A stretch of DNA of 64,000 nucleotides from an uncultured Pelagibacteraceae bacterium (lineage in GTDB: Bacteria > Pseudomonadota > Alphaproteobacteria > Pelagibacterales > Pelagibacteraceae), in NCBI GenBank assembly GCA_902626575.1, contig CACOFY010000003.1, positions 1 to 64,000 of the forward strand, read 5' to 3'. The translations under genes were made by a program, and so were the position numbers. Below are positions 1,945-6,718 of the stretch, one piece after another (position 1 is the first letter of the stretch; each line of letters starts with the position of its first letter). Under the pieces are notes generated by a model. That model was not told the origin of the DNA and did no database searches. It saw nothing but the letters and a program-made list of their open reading frames with translations.

Positions 1945-3281
1945 TGTTTAAAAAAATTTTGATAGCCAATAGAGGTGAAATTGCTGTCCGAATTATAAGA
2001 GCATGTAAAGAGTGGGGAATTTCAACCGTAGCAGTCCATTCTGATGTTGATAGAGAGAGCATGCATGTAAGATTAGCTGATGAAAGTATATGCATAGGTT
2101 CTCACCAGCCAGTAAATAGCTATTTAAATATTCCAGCTATAATGTCTGCAATAGAATTAACAAATTCTGAAGCTGTTCACCCAGGATATGGTTTCTTATC
2201 TGAAAATTCAAATTTTGCAAAGATATTAGAGGACAATAAAATTAAATTTATAGGACCATCATCTAAATTGATAAAAATGATGGGTGATAAAATACAAGCA
2301 AAAAAAATTGCTAAAGAGCATGGATTACCTGTAATTGAAGGGTCGGATGGAGGCGTTTCAGATATTAATAATGCGAAAGAAATTTGTAAAAAAATTGGTT
2401 TTCCAGTTTTAATTAAAGCTGCAGGTGGTGGTGGTGGAAAAGGCATGAAAATTGTTTTTGAAGAGAAAGATTTTGAAAATTTATTTCTTACTGCAAAATC
2501 AGAGGCAAAAAAATATTTTGGAAATGATGAGGTTTATATTGAAAAATTTTTTCAAAATCCAAGACATATAGAAGTTCAAGTTTTATCAGGAAAAAATGGA
2601 ACTGTTCACCTTCATGAGAGAGATTGTTCTGTACAAAGAAGACATCAAAAGTTAATTGAGGAAACTCCCAGCCCAGTTTTAAATGATGATTTAAGAAAAG
2701 ATCTTTTTTCAAAAACTGTAAATATGGTTGAAAAAATTGGTTATGAGGGAGCCGGTACAGTTGAATTTATTTTTGAAAATGGAAAATTCTATTTTCTAGA
2801 AATGAATACAAGGGTACAAGTTGAACATCCGGTCACTGAAATGGTTACTGGTATAGATATTATAAAGGAGCAGATTTGGATTGCTTTTTCTGGTGAAACC
2901 GCGCTTAAACAAAAAGATATTAATCCAAGAGGTCATGCAATTGAATGTAGAATAAATGCCGAGGATGCGAGTAAAAATTTTCAACCCTCTCCGGGTGTTA
3001 TCGGAATGTGTCATCAACCTTCTGGATTTAGAACCAGGGTGGATGGTGCAATCTACCAAGGGTGTAAAGTAACACCATTTTATGACAGTATGATTTGTAA
3101 ATTGATTTGTCATGGTAGAAATAGAACTGAGGCTATTCAAAGGATATTACGATCTCTAGATGAGTTTGTAATAGAAGGTATAACAACTACTATTGATTTA
3201 CACAAAAAATTACTTACACATAAAAAATTTATAGAATCTGACTTTAATGTTTCTTGGTTAGATAAAGATAAAATAATTTAA
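1944..3281 (+). CDS. accC: Biotin carboxylase subunit of acetyl-CoA carboxylase
   Basis: ATP-dependent carboxylation of the biotin on AccB. The 445 residues give the full three-domain enzyme: an N-terminal domain with ANRGEIAVRI, HPGYGFLSEN at 79-88, the ATP-grasp glycine-rich loop GGGGGKGMKI at 161-170, and EMNTRVQVEHPVTE in the catalytic core. It ends convergently with the DUF2155 gene, overlapping by 4 bases. In many alphaproteobacteria aat follows accC; it is not present here. Confidence 0.98.
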   Translation: MFKKILIANRGEIAVRIIRACKEWGISTVAVHSDVDRESMHVRLADESICIGSHQPVNSYLNIPAIMSAIELTNSEAVHPGYGFLSENSNFAKILEDNKIKFIGPSSKLIKMMGDKIQAKKIAKEHGLPVIEGSDGGVSDINNAKEICKKIGFPVLIKAAGGGGGKGMKIVFEEKDFENLFLTAKSEAKKYFGNDEVYIEKFFQNPRHIEVQVLSGKNGTVHLHERDCSVQRRHQKLIEETPSPVLNDDLRKDLFSKTVNMVEKIGYEGAGTVEFIFENGKFYFLEMNTRVQVEHPVTEMVTGIDIIKEQIWIAFSGETALKQKDINPRGHAIECRINAEDASKNFQPSPGVIGMCHQPSGFRTRVDGAIYQGCKVTPFYDSMICKLICHGRNRTEAIQRILRSLDEFVIEGITTTIDLHKKLLTHKKFIESDFNVSWLDKDKII

Positions 3282-3682
3282 TAACATTTAGTTATCCAAA
3301 TATCATAAACTGGGTGATCAAAAGGTCTTAGAGTTGGACTAGATGAGAATGTCCAGCCATTAAATACAAAAACCTCGTCATTATCATCGCTTTTAAGATC
3401 TTTAACTTGTAAATATGCAGTTATTTCAGGATTATCATCAAATTCTGAATTTTTACATTTTAAGGCTTTGATCGAGATGTTTTTGAAAAATTTTTCTTCT
3501 AAAATTTTTACCCTCAGTTCGTAGCTTTTAGAGCTAACTTTATCTAAAACTTTAATCTCTAAATAATTACCCTCCAAAACTGAGTTTTGCGAGTTTGAAG
3601 TAATTGTGTAAAGCAGAAAAATAATAAAAAATAAAAAAAAGCTAATTTTTCCAACTAGTGTATTTTTTTTTAATTTGATCAT
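3278..3682 (-). CDS. DUF2155 domain protein, exported or membrane-anchored
   Basis: A 134-residue protein with a basic N-terminus and a hydrophobic segment at about 13-30 (signal peptide or anchor). The conserved DUF2155 core follows: a YLEIKVLDK start, then FNGWTFSSSPTL and PFDHPVYDIWI near the C-terminus. Its biochemical function is unknown; members are periplasmic in alphaproteobacteria and usually lie beside an NDUFA12 homologue, as here. Its start sits 41 bases inside the 3' end of that upstream gene in another frame. No internal start codon rescues a shorter form without losing the signal segment. Confidence 0.85.
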   Translation of the reverse strand: MIKLKKNTLVGKISFFLFFIIFLLYTITSNSQNSVLEGNYLEIKVLDKVSSKSYELRVKILEEKFFKNISIKALKCKNSEFDDNPEITAYLQVKDLKSDDNDEVFVFNGWTFSSSPTLRPFDHPVYDIWITKCY

Positions 3683-4004
3683 TTTTTTTATTTGGATGGT
3701 ATGCCTTCTCAGTACCAGTTAAATTAGGTGAATGAGGTTTTTGCCATTTATATTTTTTTGTATCATGTTTGTATTCAATTTTATTTTTCATGAAATGGAT
3801 CCAGGAAAACCAATCGTTTGGAATTTTTGACGCATCTATTTCGTCTTTATAAATAATCCATCTTTTTGTTTTTTTTTTGTTTTCATAATATTTATTATCA
3901 AACTCATCTTTTCCCACGAATTTTCCAAAAAAAAACGTATATAATTTTGTTCCTAGAGTTTCTTGATTCCACCAAACAAAAATTTTTTTTATAAATGTCA
4001 ACAT
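3642..4004 (-). CDS. NDUFA12 / complex I 17.2 kDa subunit family protein
   Basis: Accessory protein of NADH:ubiquinone oxidoreductase shared by alphaproteobacteria and mitochondria. It is 120 residues long. Family hallmarks visible are GTKLYTFFFGKFVGKDEFDNKYY near the N-terminus, RWIIYKDEIDASKIPNDWFSWIH in the middle, and the C-terminal HSPNLTGTEKAY followed by an aromatic tail. It is away from any nuo genes in this window but next to DUF2155, which is usual for alphaproteobacteria. The downstream gene starts within its last 41 bases, across a run of nine A. Confidence 0.9.
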   Translation of the reverse strand: MLTFIKKIFVWWNQETLGTKLYTFFFGKFVGKDEFDNKYYENKKKTKRWIIYKDEIDASKIPNDWFSWIHFMKNKIEYKHDTKKYKWQKPHSPNLTGTEKAYHPNKKNDQIKKKYTSWKN

Positions 4005-4111: not shown

Positions 4112-4936
4112 ATGGCAAAATATTTAGTTGAAACTTATTACAATTGTAGCTTCAAAGTAAGTCATTATTTAGACAAAGTAGACGAGAAAGAGTTGTCTAA
4201 TCTTGAAAATAGAGATGATGGGAAGTTTGAAATACTTGATATCAAATTAGATACAAGAAAAACTAAAAGTTTAGAGAAGAACCAAAAATTTTCAGAGAAG
4301 AATACAATAGAAACAAAAACTGAGAGTATTAAAAAACAAATAATAAAAGAAAATAACTCGCCCTTAATCAACAAATTAACTGACAGTGTGGGTAGAAGAT
4401 TTAGTATGCCAGATCGAAGAAAAGGTTATATTCAAAAAGTTACTATTGGAGATCATAAAGTATATTTACATACAGGAGAATATGAGGATGGAAAAATTGG
4501 AGAAATTTTCATTGATACCAGTAAAGAAGGTGAATTAGTAAAAGCTTTGATGAATAATTTTGCAATAGCAATATCCCTTGGACTACAATACGGCGTTCCT
4601 CTTGATGAGTTTGTTAATGCATACGTAGATACAAAGTTTGAACCATCTGGAAAAGTATATGGTAACGATAGAATTTTAAGTGCTTCATCGATTTTAGATT
4701 ATATTTTCAGAGAACTTGCAATATCTTATCTAAATAGAGAGGATCTTGCACACACACCGTCAATTGGAAATGGTGTAGAAAAATCAAAAGATGATGAGAC
4801 GAGTGATAATGAAGATCAAAACCAATTTTTAAAACTTGTAAAAGATATTACTAGTAAAGGGTTTGTAAGAAACAACTATAAAAAAAAACTTGTAGATTTG
4901 TCAGACATAAGAATAAATCTCAAAGGAAAAAAATAG
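4112..4936 (+). CDS. Orphan TSCPD-type protein resembling the C-terminal part of B12-dependent ribonucleotide reductase
   Basis: A 274-residue protein whose middle (about 96-210) closely resembles the C-terminal region of class II NrdJ. The shared blocks are [53 protein letters not shown] and [17 protein letters not shown]. The N-terminal 60 residues ([12 protein letters not shown]...) are a separate piece, joined by a charged linker at about 60-85; the C-terminus is acidic, then basic. There is no catalytic reductase barrel and only one cysteine, so it cannot be a reductase alone. It may be a subunit, a nucleotide-sensing protein or a surviving domain; function is inferred only from similarity. 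Confidence 0.7.
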
Positions 4937-6718
4937 CTATTTTTTTTTAATTTGTAATCCAAGCTCTTTTAATTGTTTCTCATCAACTTCTGATGGAGCG
5001 TCCATCATCAAATCTTGAGCATTTTGATTCATTGGAAATAAAGTAACTTCTCTAATATTTTTTTCATTTGCTAATAACATTACAATTCTATCTAACCCAG
5101 GTGCAATGCCTCCATGTGGTGGAGCACCATAATTTAATGCATTTATAATTCCTTTGAATTTTTTTTGTACCTCTGATTTTGAATATCCAACGACTGAAAA
5201 TAATTTATACATCAAGTCTGGTTTATGATTTCTTATAGCGCCGGAAGAAAGTTCTATTCCATTACAAACAATATCATATTGATAAGCTTTTATTTCTAAT
5301 GGTTTTGAAAAGTTTATCTTTGATAAATCTCCTTGTGGCATTGAAAAAGGATTGTGGCTGAATTGGATTTTTTTTGTATTTTCATCGATTTCGAACATGG
5401 GATAGTCAACAATCCAACAAAAAGCAAAGCTATTCTCATTAATTAACTTTAGTTCTTGTGCAATTTTATCTCTTGCTGATGAAATTAACTTTAACACCTC
5501 TTTCTCTTTATTGCATGAAAAGAAAATACTATCTCCAATATTTGCTTTCATGATTTTCATAATTTCTTTAATAGAATTCGCTGAAAAAAACTTTCCTACA
5601 GGACCTTTGGCTGAAATCTCCTTATCATTTTCAATGGTAAAATAAGCCATGCCTGAAGCGCCTTGATCTTTTGCCCACTTATCAATTCCATCAAAAAAAC
5701 TTCTAGGTTTATCTTTTGTGTTTGTAGTTTTTATTGCTCTTACTATTGATCCAGATTTTACTAACTTTTTAAAAATTTCAAATTTTACATCTTCTCTTGT
5801 GAATATTGATGTTAGATCACATATTTCTAATGGATTTCTCAAATCTGGTTTATCAGATCCATATTTTAGTATAGCATCCTTGTATGTTATTCTTGGAAAT
5901 TTTTCAAATAACATTTTTTTTGTGGAAAATTTTTTAAATAGAAGCAACATTAGTTTCTCTACAACAAAAAAAACATCTTCCTGTTCAACAAAAGACATTT
6001 CAATATCAAGCTGATAAAATTCTCCTGGACTTCTATCTGCTCTTGCGTCTTCATCCCTAAAGCATGGTGCAATCTGAAAATATTTATCAAAGCCTGATAT
6101 CATAATTAATTGTTTGAACTGTTGCGGTGCCTGGGGTAATGCATAAAATTTTCCTGGATTTAATCTACTTGGAACTAAAAAGTCTCTTGCTCCCTCTGGG
6201 CTTGACGATGTAAGAATGGGTGTCTGAAATTCTAAAAATCCAAGTTTTGTCATTTCATCTCTAATAAAAGATATAATTTTGGACCTAAGAGAAATATTTT
6301 CATGAACTTTTTTTCTTCTTAAGTCTAAAAACCTGTATTTTAATCTTATATCCTCTGCATATTCTTGATCTGAAAAAACTGGCATTGGAAGCTCTTCACA
6401 AGCTCCCAAAACTTCATAAGATTTGATTTTTATCTCTATTTCTCCTGTTTTAATATCTTTGTTGATTGTATCAGGACTTCTTTCAACAACCTCACCGACA
6501 ATTTTTATGACTGTTTCTAGTTGAATTTTTTCTAGATTTTTAAAAAATTTATTTTCTTTATCAATTATACATTGTGTAATTCCATAATTATCTCTTAAAT
6601 CTAAAAATAATAAATTTCCATGATCTCTCTTTTTATTAATCCAGCCTGATAAAACTACTTCAGAACCTTTGTTTTTTTTTGTCAATTCTCCGCAGGTATT
6701 AGATCTGTATTTATTCAA
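4937..6718 (-). CDS. aspS: Aspartyl-tRNA synthetase
   Basis: Charges tRNA with aspartate. The 593 residues follow the bacterial AspRS plan: an N-terminal OB-fold anticodon-binding domain (VVLSGWINKKRDHGN, 22-36), a class II catalytic core split by a GAD-type insertion, and class II motif 3 in GIAPGLDRIVMLL near the C-terminus. Motif 2 is visible as FRDEDARADRSPGEF. Its start overlaps the hdaA stop by 4 bases. Whether it also charges tRNA-Asn cannot be told here without the gatCAB and asnS context. Confidence 0.97.
   Translation of the reverse strand: MNKYRSNTCGELTKKNKGSEVVLSGWINKKRDHGNLLFLDLRDNYGITQCIIDKENKFFKNLEKIQLETVIKIVGEVVERSPDTINKDIKTGEIEIKIKSYEVLGACEELPMPVFSDQEYAEDIRLKYRFLDLRRKKVHENISLRSKIISFIRDEMTKLGFLEFQTPILTSSSPEGARDFLVPSRLNPGKFYALPQAPQQFKQLIMISGFDKYFQIAPCFRDEDARADRSPGEFYQLDIEMSFVEQEDVFFVVEKLMLLLFKKFSTKKMLFEKFPRITYKDAILKYGSDKPDLRNPLEICDLTSIFTREDVKFEIFKKLVKSGSIVRAIKTTNTKDKPRSFFDGIDKWAKDQGASGMAYFTIENDKEISAKGPVGKFFSANSIKEIMKIMKANIGDSIFFSCNKEKEVLKLISSARDKIAQELKLINENSFAFCWIVDYPMFEIDENTKKIQFSHNPFSMPQGDLSKINFSKPLEIKAYQYDIVCNGIELSSGAIRNHKPDLMYKLFSVVGYSKSEVQKKFKGIINALNYGAPPHGGIAPGLDRIVMLLANEKNIREVTLFPMNQNAQDLMMDAPSEVDEKQLKELGLQIKKK

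Follow-up and report, generated by a model that had tools for sequence, protein, structure and literature searches.

A stand-alone NrdJ tail protein at the nrdJ locus of Pelagibacteraceae and decay of nrdJ with the tail kept in other Alphaproteobacteria

An IscU-like domain has been described in the C-termini of class II (B12-dependent) ribonucleotide reductases, most examples of which lack cluster-ligand cysteines, and the relevant passages of that source report no role for the domain (PMC9669993). Cysteine arrays of the tails of these enzymes (NrdJ) pass electrons (PMC5704485, PMC4520616), and in Stackebrandtia the NrdJ tail region is needed for effector-induced oligomers, a result obtained with the whole cysteine-rich region and not with this domain alone (PMC5704485). 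Class II reductases split into NrdJa and NrdJb have also been described (PMC9669993), NrdJb of Pseudomonas aeruginosa being a protein of 229 aa (PMC4520616). A search of titles and the beginnings of abstracts in the open-access literature found none that describes, for SAR11 or any other alphaproteobacterium, an NrdJ tail that stands alone or has decayed; the SAR11 passages of PMC10547690 concern viral class II enzymes.

The window analyzed here is a stretch of 64,000 nucleotides from an uncultured member of the Pelagibacteraceae, and it contains a gene for such a stand-alone tail (Table 1). With alphaproteobacterial NrdJ of the PRK07562 type, the encoded protein has the core, the S.GFxR block, and the chromosomal position in common, but it lacks the barrel, the class II N-domain, the NPCSE/redox motif, and the zinc-ribbon tail and carries an extra N-terminus. 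Like NrdJb, it places a tail with an IscU-like domain on its own polypeptide (PMC4520616, PMC9669993), whereas NrdJb has a zinc-finger/cysteine array and a partner, NrdJa, in the same operon, and the protein studied here has no such array and no linkage to nrdA, and no NrdJa was found for it. IscU and SufU have cluster-ligand cysteines, of which the core has none. Stand-alone TSCPD proteins of phages (phrog_23565; BFVD A0A6J5L9T7 and A0A6J5KVY3; and the viral frames of Table 1) likewise consist of the tail domain alone but are shorter and divergent, have no SAR11 N-terminus, and lie in a mobile context. NrdR and other ATP-cone regulators are alike in proposed role only (dNTP supply), as the SAR11 protein has neither an ATP-cone nor detected homology to them.

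Table 1. Coordinates of the gene, its zones, its neighbors (positions in the window), and viral relatives (positions in the named contigs)
Feature	Position	Strand	Basis
Whole gene, stand-alone NrdJ-tail protein	4112..4936	+	ORF, Pfam, NCBIfam
N-terminal piece, residues 1-52	4112..4267	+	Invariant columns, pN/pS 0.043, model
Variable linker, residues 53-95	4268..4396	+	pN/pS 0.23; pLDDT <50 in residues 38-94
Core, residues 96-216, TSCPD/IscU-like domain of NrdJ	4397..4759	+	Pfam, NCBIfam, pN/pS 0.008
Variable acidic linker, residues 217-238	4760..4825	+	pN/pS 0.20
Conserved tail, residues 239-274	4826..4933	+	pN/pS 0.015; NrdJ alignment
NDUFA12-like upstream neighbor, anchor of nrdJ locus	3642..4004	-	Position; name presumptive
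aspS downstream neighbor, convergent, abutting, second anchor	4937..6718	-	Position; name presumptive
Viral tail-only frames	L092:895-1392; L094:3839-4369; L095:3845-4297; L096:234-599; L097:3797-4228		

A reductase tail on its own polypeptide

The gene is a single open frame with an ATG start, encoding 274 aa. A first-pass annotation made from the sequence alone had described a core of about 115 residues like the NrdJ C-terminal region, with no catalytic reductase domain attached, and profile searches bore out both statements. The Pfam model TSCPD (PF12637), of a family named after the motif T-S-C-P-D, matched at E 9.5e-12 and 45.5 bits (curated cut-off, 22.8). NCBIfam PRK07562 (B12-dependent reductase) matched at E 3.5e-66 and 223.6 bits, with residues 59 to 262 aligned to model positions 934 to 1132 of 1222, a similarity well away from chance. 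The conserved core covers about residues 96 to 216. The PRK07562 score is far under the full-length cut-off of 1737 because the tail alone is present. Neither the barrel domain (PF02867) nor the class II N-domain (PF08471) was found in the 274-aa protein by Pfam scan, and both are present in two NrdJ proteins of the sister family; the scan also found no ATP-cone (PF03477). The motifs NPCSE, HACF, and PTGTI, which we take to be the catalytic, redox, and loop motifs of class II NrdJ, were absent from 10 of 10 frames of the SAR11 protein and present in all 24 intact NrdJ sequences.

Past the variable stretch, a further block of 13 residues in the first part of the conserved tail (..ITSKGFVR) can also be aligned to NrdJ, where it falls immediately behind the core, and zinc-ribbon cysteines are absent from residues 239 to 274. 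The core contains no cysteine. The only one in the whole protein is C12 of the N-terminal piece, which, together with H18, is among 14 residues of that piece invariant in 20 aligned rows. A structural model of the full protein was confident in the core only (pLDDT of 78 to 93 in ten-residue blocks between residues 101 and 210), and the N-terminus modeled alone formed a strand-helix-strand with mean pLDDT of 89 and 86 in two models and 55 to 57 in the other three. Comparison with PDB structures put IscU/SufU weakly on top (Z 5.5, rmsd 6.5, 112 residues aligned; Z 4.9, rmsd 2.7, 83 aligned), with unrelated entries such as NADH peroxidase tied at 4.8, and a sequence search of solved structures returned nothing credible (best E 0.064, unrelated). 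The core very likely corresponds to the IscU-like domain described in the C-termini of class II reductases.

Purifying selection was estimated from 75 sequences (the window and 74 of 80 loci) as the mean pN/pS of 246 pairs with dS between 0.05 and 0.9, leaving out five partial matches (L108, L111, L115, L167, and L174) and L159. Overall pN/pS was 0.065, with the strong contrast between zones given in Table 1. Neighboring genes, computed whole and with a slightly different pair filter, gave 0.039 (accC), 0.081 (aspS), 0.198 (Hda), 0.317 (accB and NDUFA12), and 0.483 (DUF2155). The core is thus at about a tenth of aspS, part of this contrast arising because the conserved zone of one gene is set against neighbors taken whole; compared whole with whole, the gene falls between accC and aspS. 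Selection on the core is very strong, which lends firm support to the first-pass argument from conservation to a live function. Within this run of highly constrained genes, the neighbor at window positions 3278 to 3682 (- strand), presumably of DUF2155 type, evolves very fast (pN/pS 0.48).

Reduction of NrdJ in place

An order-level search covered 197 genomes in two families, the window's own (f1, 144 genomes) and its sister (f2, 53 genomes); 80 named f1 relatives are titled Pelagibacteraceae, Pelagibacter, or Pelagibacterales. The tail protein was present in 138 of the 144 f1 genomes, each match listed being one open frame of 269 to 307 aa without internal stops. Of the six remaining genomes, five gave no match to aspS at E<=1e-50. 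In the sixth (G060:C17, L185) aspS is cut: it breaks off after residue 270 and continues as a purN-like fragment, apparently through chimeric assembly. Because this neighboring gene is absent or cut in each, the absence is likely due to missing sequence. In the sister family the same query matched 48 of 53 genomes, and the frames among the matches listed (1200 to 1216 aa) are intact NrdJ. Residues 290 to 363 of two of these (L051 and L052) also gave a sub-cut-off match to the TACO1_YebC N-terminal domain (E 3.5e-5 and 2.4e-6).

The sister family shows where the gene came from. With neighbor names that are presumptive, NDUFA12 and aspS included, the f2 gene run is aroQ-accB-accC-(DUF2155)-NDUFA12-nrdJ-aspS (L051, L052, L053, and L055), with NDUFA12 divergent on one side of nrdJ and aspS convergent on the other. 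In f1 the tail gene fills the corresponding space between NDUFA12 and aspS and has the same orientation (L042, L044, and the window). Because of this shared position and direction, the f1 gene is, with near certainty, an nrdJ that was cut down to its tail where it stood; retention of a domain once NrdJ had been lost was one of the origins proposed at first pass. The gene has lost its catalytic barrel and terminal zinc ribbon, retains the IscU-like/TSCPD core along with the ITSKGFVR block, and has gained a 52-residue N-terminus that is found in the window's family only. Nor is the gene a frameshifted fragment beside nrdJ remnants, the outcome against which the first-pass annotation had cautioned: the f1 matches listed are open, and the gap to the upstream NDUFA12 is 107 bases, therefore too short to conceal such remnants.

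In a tree of core sequences, the f1 proteins formed one clade (99/92) among unresolved alphaproteobacterial cores, with no specific tie to f2 NrdJ, so that descent from NrdJ rests on position together with general NrdJ likeness. Their branch is long (0.32), and their cores are 66 to 75% identical to alphaproteobacterial NrdJ (71%), compared to 79% for f2 NrdJ against intact NrdJ; this greater distance fits partial re-adaptation of the core.

The new N-terminus has no evident source. Among 385 genomes of the class it matched f1 genomes (5) plus one chance match (E 0.0035), among 299 genomes of the phylum its six matches were all weak (E 0.0035 at best, across 32 residues), and in 15 sister-family genomes the best match had E 0.048. 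Profile comparison with NrdJ gave no match, Pfam nothing under E 0.04, viral contigs none, and PDB folds nothing under E 1. Fusion of this piece after the loss of NrdJ in f1 could have created a new, lineage-specific function for the tail, an explanation in keeping with the conservation of the N-terminus (pN/pS 0.043, with its 14 invariant residues), its lack of a credible relative elsewhere, and the long core branch. However, decayed NrdJs of other families (described below) keep the tail, and none of those read has the SAR11 N-terminus, making retention of the tail independent of it. We regard such an origin of the function as improbable.

Relatives on mobile elements were also considered. 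Tail-only TSCPD open frames of 122 to 177 aa occur in five viral contigs, one of them (in L097) lying just upstream of a gene that by eye resembles a DNA methyltransferase; plasmid matches were to genes annotated as B12-dependent reductase or to unannotated stretches. A viral origin was rejected, the viral and phage relatives being either tails of NrdJ or tail-only frames that are short and divergent. Such tail-only phage proteins do lend something to the idea that an independent, for example phage-borne, TSCPD gene was inserted at the locus, but the position is exactly that of intact nrdJ, and the window protein is only 28 to 50% identical to the viral tail-only frames, compared to the much higher identity of SAR11 cores to NrdJ given above. 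Equally, a core pN/pS of 0.008 speaks against a non-functional relic, and we consider an inserted gene or a relic extremely unlikely. The label of orphan applied at first pass needs qualifying: it holds within the window's family, but a less advanced form of the same barrel decay with the tail kept is found in 14 other alphaproteobacterial genomes, and the viral frames limit it further.

Decayed nrdJ genes in other families

A profile built from the orphan found the core in 248 of 385 alphaproteobacterial genomes, most frames listed being 1000 to 1400 aa. The other 137, of which 107 are among 314 good assemblies, gave no core match at E<=1e-6, and the function of the tail is therefore dispensable in many lineages. 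At least 14 genomes carry a decayed nrdJ in which the tail is kept behind a decayed or unrecognizable barrel; 12 of these frames were read whole (L196 to L205, L214, and L215), the other two genomes being G353 and G527. Because the same kinds of genome recur among them (five of family f65, three of f28, and two of f147), these are not 14 events.

Eight decayed frames were scanned with profiles. The barrel was not matched in L197, L201, or L214, reached E 0.18 in L205, fell below the cut-off in L202, and gave partial matches of 36 to 68 bits in L196, L200, and L215, compared to 417 and 430 bits in two intact NrdJs; TSCPD was above its cut-off in all eight. HACF, NPCSE, and PTGTI were missing from 12 of 12 decayed frames. 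A CxxC..CxxC pattern persists behind the core in nine of the 12, and in these the tail could have a role in redox chemistry or zinc binding. NDUFA12 adjoins 11 of the 12 (the exception is L200), with aspS also near five in the stretch fetched, which indicates in-place decay of nrdJ for nearly all of them; at intact loci, NDUFA12 lay within the stretch fetched in three of eight.

Mean core and upstream identities were 0.92 and 0.41 within f65, 0.92 and 0.27 for f147 against f181, 0.66 and 0.48 within f28, and 1.00 and 0.93 for two close f147 genomes, compared to 0.82 and 0.64 (upstream including the catalytic barrel) for eight intact NrdJ loci (L206 to L213). Intact NrdJ, too, is better conserved in the tail core than in the sequence before it. 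Decayed cores of f65, f147, and f181 are 80% identical to intact NrdJ, level with the 79% of intact f2 NrdJ, and their sequences give no sign of core retooling after barrel loss. Decayed cores of f28 and f101 have drifted (43 to 58% to intact NrdJ). The core tree joined f65, f147, and f181 (90/91), left f152 and f162 unresolved, and placed f28 and f101 on long branches. By host kinship, independence can be claimed only for the decay in f1, since its sister family has intact NrdJ.

There are further candidates. In G515, a genome of about 1.4 Mb in family f10, the core was matched at E 3.6e-60, and the sole barrel protein found there is a 620-aa NrdA; with G204 and G435, also of f10 and core matching, it may represent another lineage in which nrdJ has decayed or only the tail is left. 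The barrel profile partially matched a 1229-aa frame of G236 (E 9.1e-32). Core matches in G294, G508, G574, and G395 lie in frames of 852, 448, 558, and 325 aa, which may be cut by contig ends (that of G395 begins at one), and three further short frames occur in G652 (110 aa), G720 (184 aa), and G698 (137 aa).

All 14 genomes with a decayed nrdJ encode NrdA (a frame of 633 to 739 aa) and no intact NrdJ, and four of them (G378, G472, G809, and G841) encode a further barrel protein of 582 to 779 aa whose class was not assigned. This comparison drew on a non-random set of 49 genomes, the other 35 having a weaker or unlisted core match; nine of the 35 have an NrdA of the same type plus an intact NrdJ. 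An NrdA beside a decayed NrdJ is expected in any case, because every cell needs some reductase. None of 10 NrdAs scanned (from nine of the decayed genomes and G515) has an ATP-cone. Unexpectedly, then, barrel decay with the tail kept recurs across alphaproteobacterial families.

Resident reductase and candidate roles of the tail

Which class of reductase accompanies the tail protein in SAR11 had been left as a question at first pass, and the answer is class I. PF02867 was found in 126 of 144 f1 genomes (frames of 534 to 669 aa among the matches listed) and in 45 of 53 f2 genomes (810 to 1218 aa, again among those listed), and the orphan and a PF02867 reductase occur together in all 11 single-contig f1 genomes. 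The reductase of the window's genome is a 647-aa NrdA with NrdB adjoining. No NrdJa-type partner was found among the f1 matches listed, and the three PF02867 loci read are NrdA beside NrdB. The orphan is not linked to nrdA (312 kb separate them in the single-contig genome G001). Two SAR11 NrdA/NrdB pairs scanned have no ATP-cone; of 30 genomes drawn from both families, 29 had one ATP-cone match each, in a frame of 153 to 167 aa (NrdR size), the exception being the incomplete window genome.

A separate tail protein with a plan similar to that of NrdJb (PMC4520616) could be a redox subunit that re-reduces class I NrdA as NrdJb does NrdJa. This reading comes close to being refuted by the sequences: the protein has no cysteine other than C12 of its N-terminus, none of 10 orphan frames scanned shows the zinc-ribbon pattern, and the three SAR11 NrdAs read, that of the window's genome included, each end in a CxxC of their own (..YEECLSCQ). 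A link to NstA, the Caulobacter topoisomerase IV inhibitor, was also considered and dropped, the parts of its literature consulted naming no reductase likeness.

That the tail stays while the barrel decays in several families, and is nearly frozen when alone, makes a role independent of NrdJ catalysis very probable. With a single cysteine, and that outside the core, electron passing in the manner of a cysteine-array tail is excluded, which leaves binding. The tail domain may already have had a binding role inside NrdJ, independent of the chemistry of the enzyme, and the retained tail would then work in trans as a non-catalytic interaction module. A live, non-catalytic, trans-acting binding protein is what the orphan probably is. 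The role seems to predate barrel decay, as the f65, f147, and f181 cores are as close to intact NrdJ as intact f2 NrdJ is, and we lean toward the view that it existed before the barrel was lost.

As to the partner, the leading candidate function is dNTP supply, in which the tail protein might bind the resident class I reductase or sense dNTPs for it and so stand in for the ATP-cone that NrdAB lacks. NrdAB is nonetheless a tentative candidate, as is the first-pass proposal that the protein could regulate or assist another reductase. About as likely is a role apart from reductases, in which the NrdJ tail would for long have served another partner, unconnected with nucleotide reduction (replication, translation, or redox control, for instance), and was retained for that function alone. 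Consistent with such a partner, core divergence does not rise upon barrel decay in f65, f147, and f181, and 51 of the roughly 119 core positions do not vary across 32 rows (10 orphans, four f2 NrdJs, eight other intact NrdJs, and 10 decayed NrdJs, with the drifted f28 and f101 left out); tail-only frames in viral contigs, including the L097 frame beside the methyltransferase-like gene, point the same way. Yet neighboring genes hint at no partner, NDUFA12 and aspS being positional anchors only, and class II reductases and proteins so annotated are the only known carriers of the region in the families searched. Taken as a whole, the somewhat favored explanation is that the tail was kept for an older, barrel-independent binding role, exercised in trans, perhaps on NrdAB. 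More speculative, and on balance doubtful, is a general version in which the IscU-like tail is a dual-use regulatory module, so that after a swap to an ATP-cone-less class I enzyme a decayed NrdJ or bare tail would control the new reductase in trans.

Nature has freed this tail from catalysis, fully in SAR11 and half-way in other Alphaproteobacteria, and because of that separation the function of the IscU-like domain can be tested free of interference from the enzyme. Because tail-only genes score against models of B12-dependent reductases, the B12 need of SAR11 may be overestimated where it is counted from gene names or partial profile matches. SAR11 cells rank with the most abundant in the ocean, and if the regulatory reading is true, they would control their dNTP supply with the fossil of a former enzyme.
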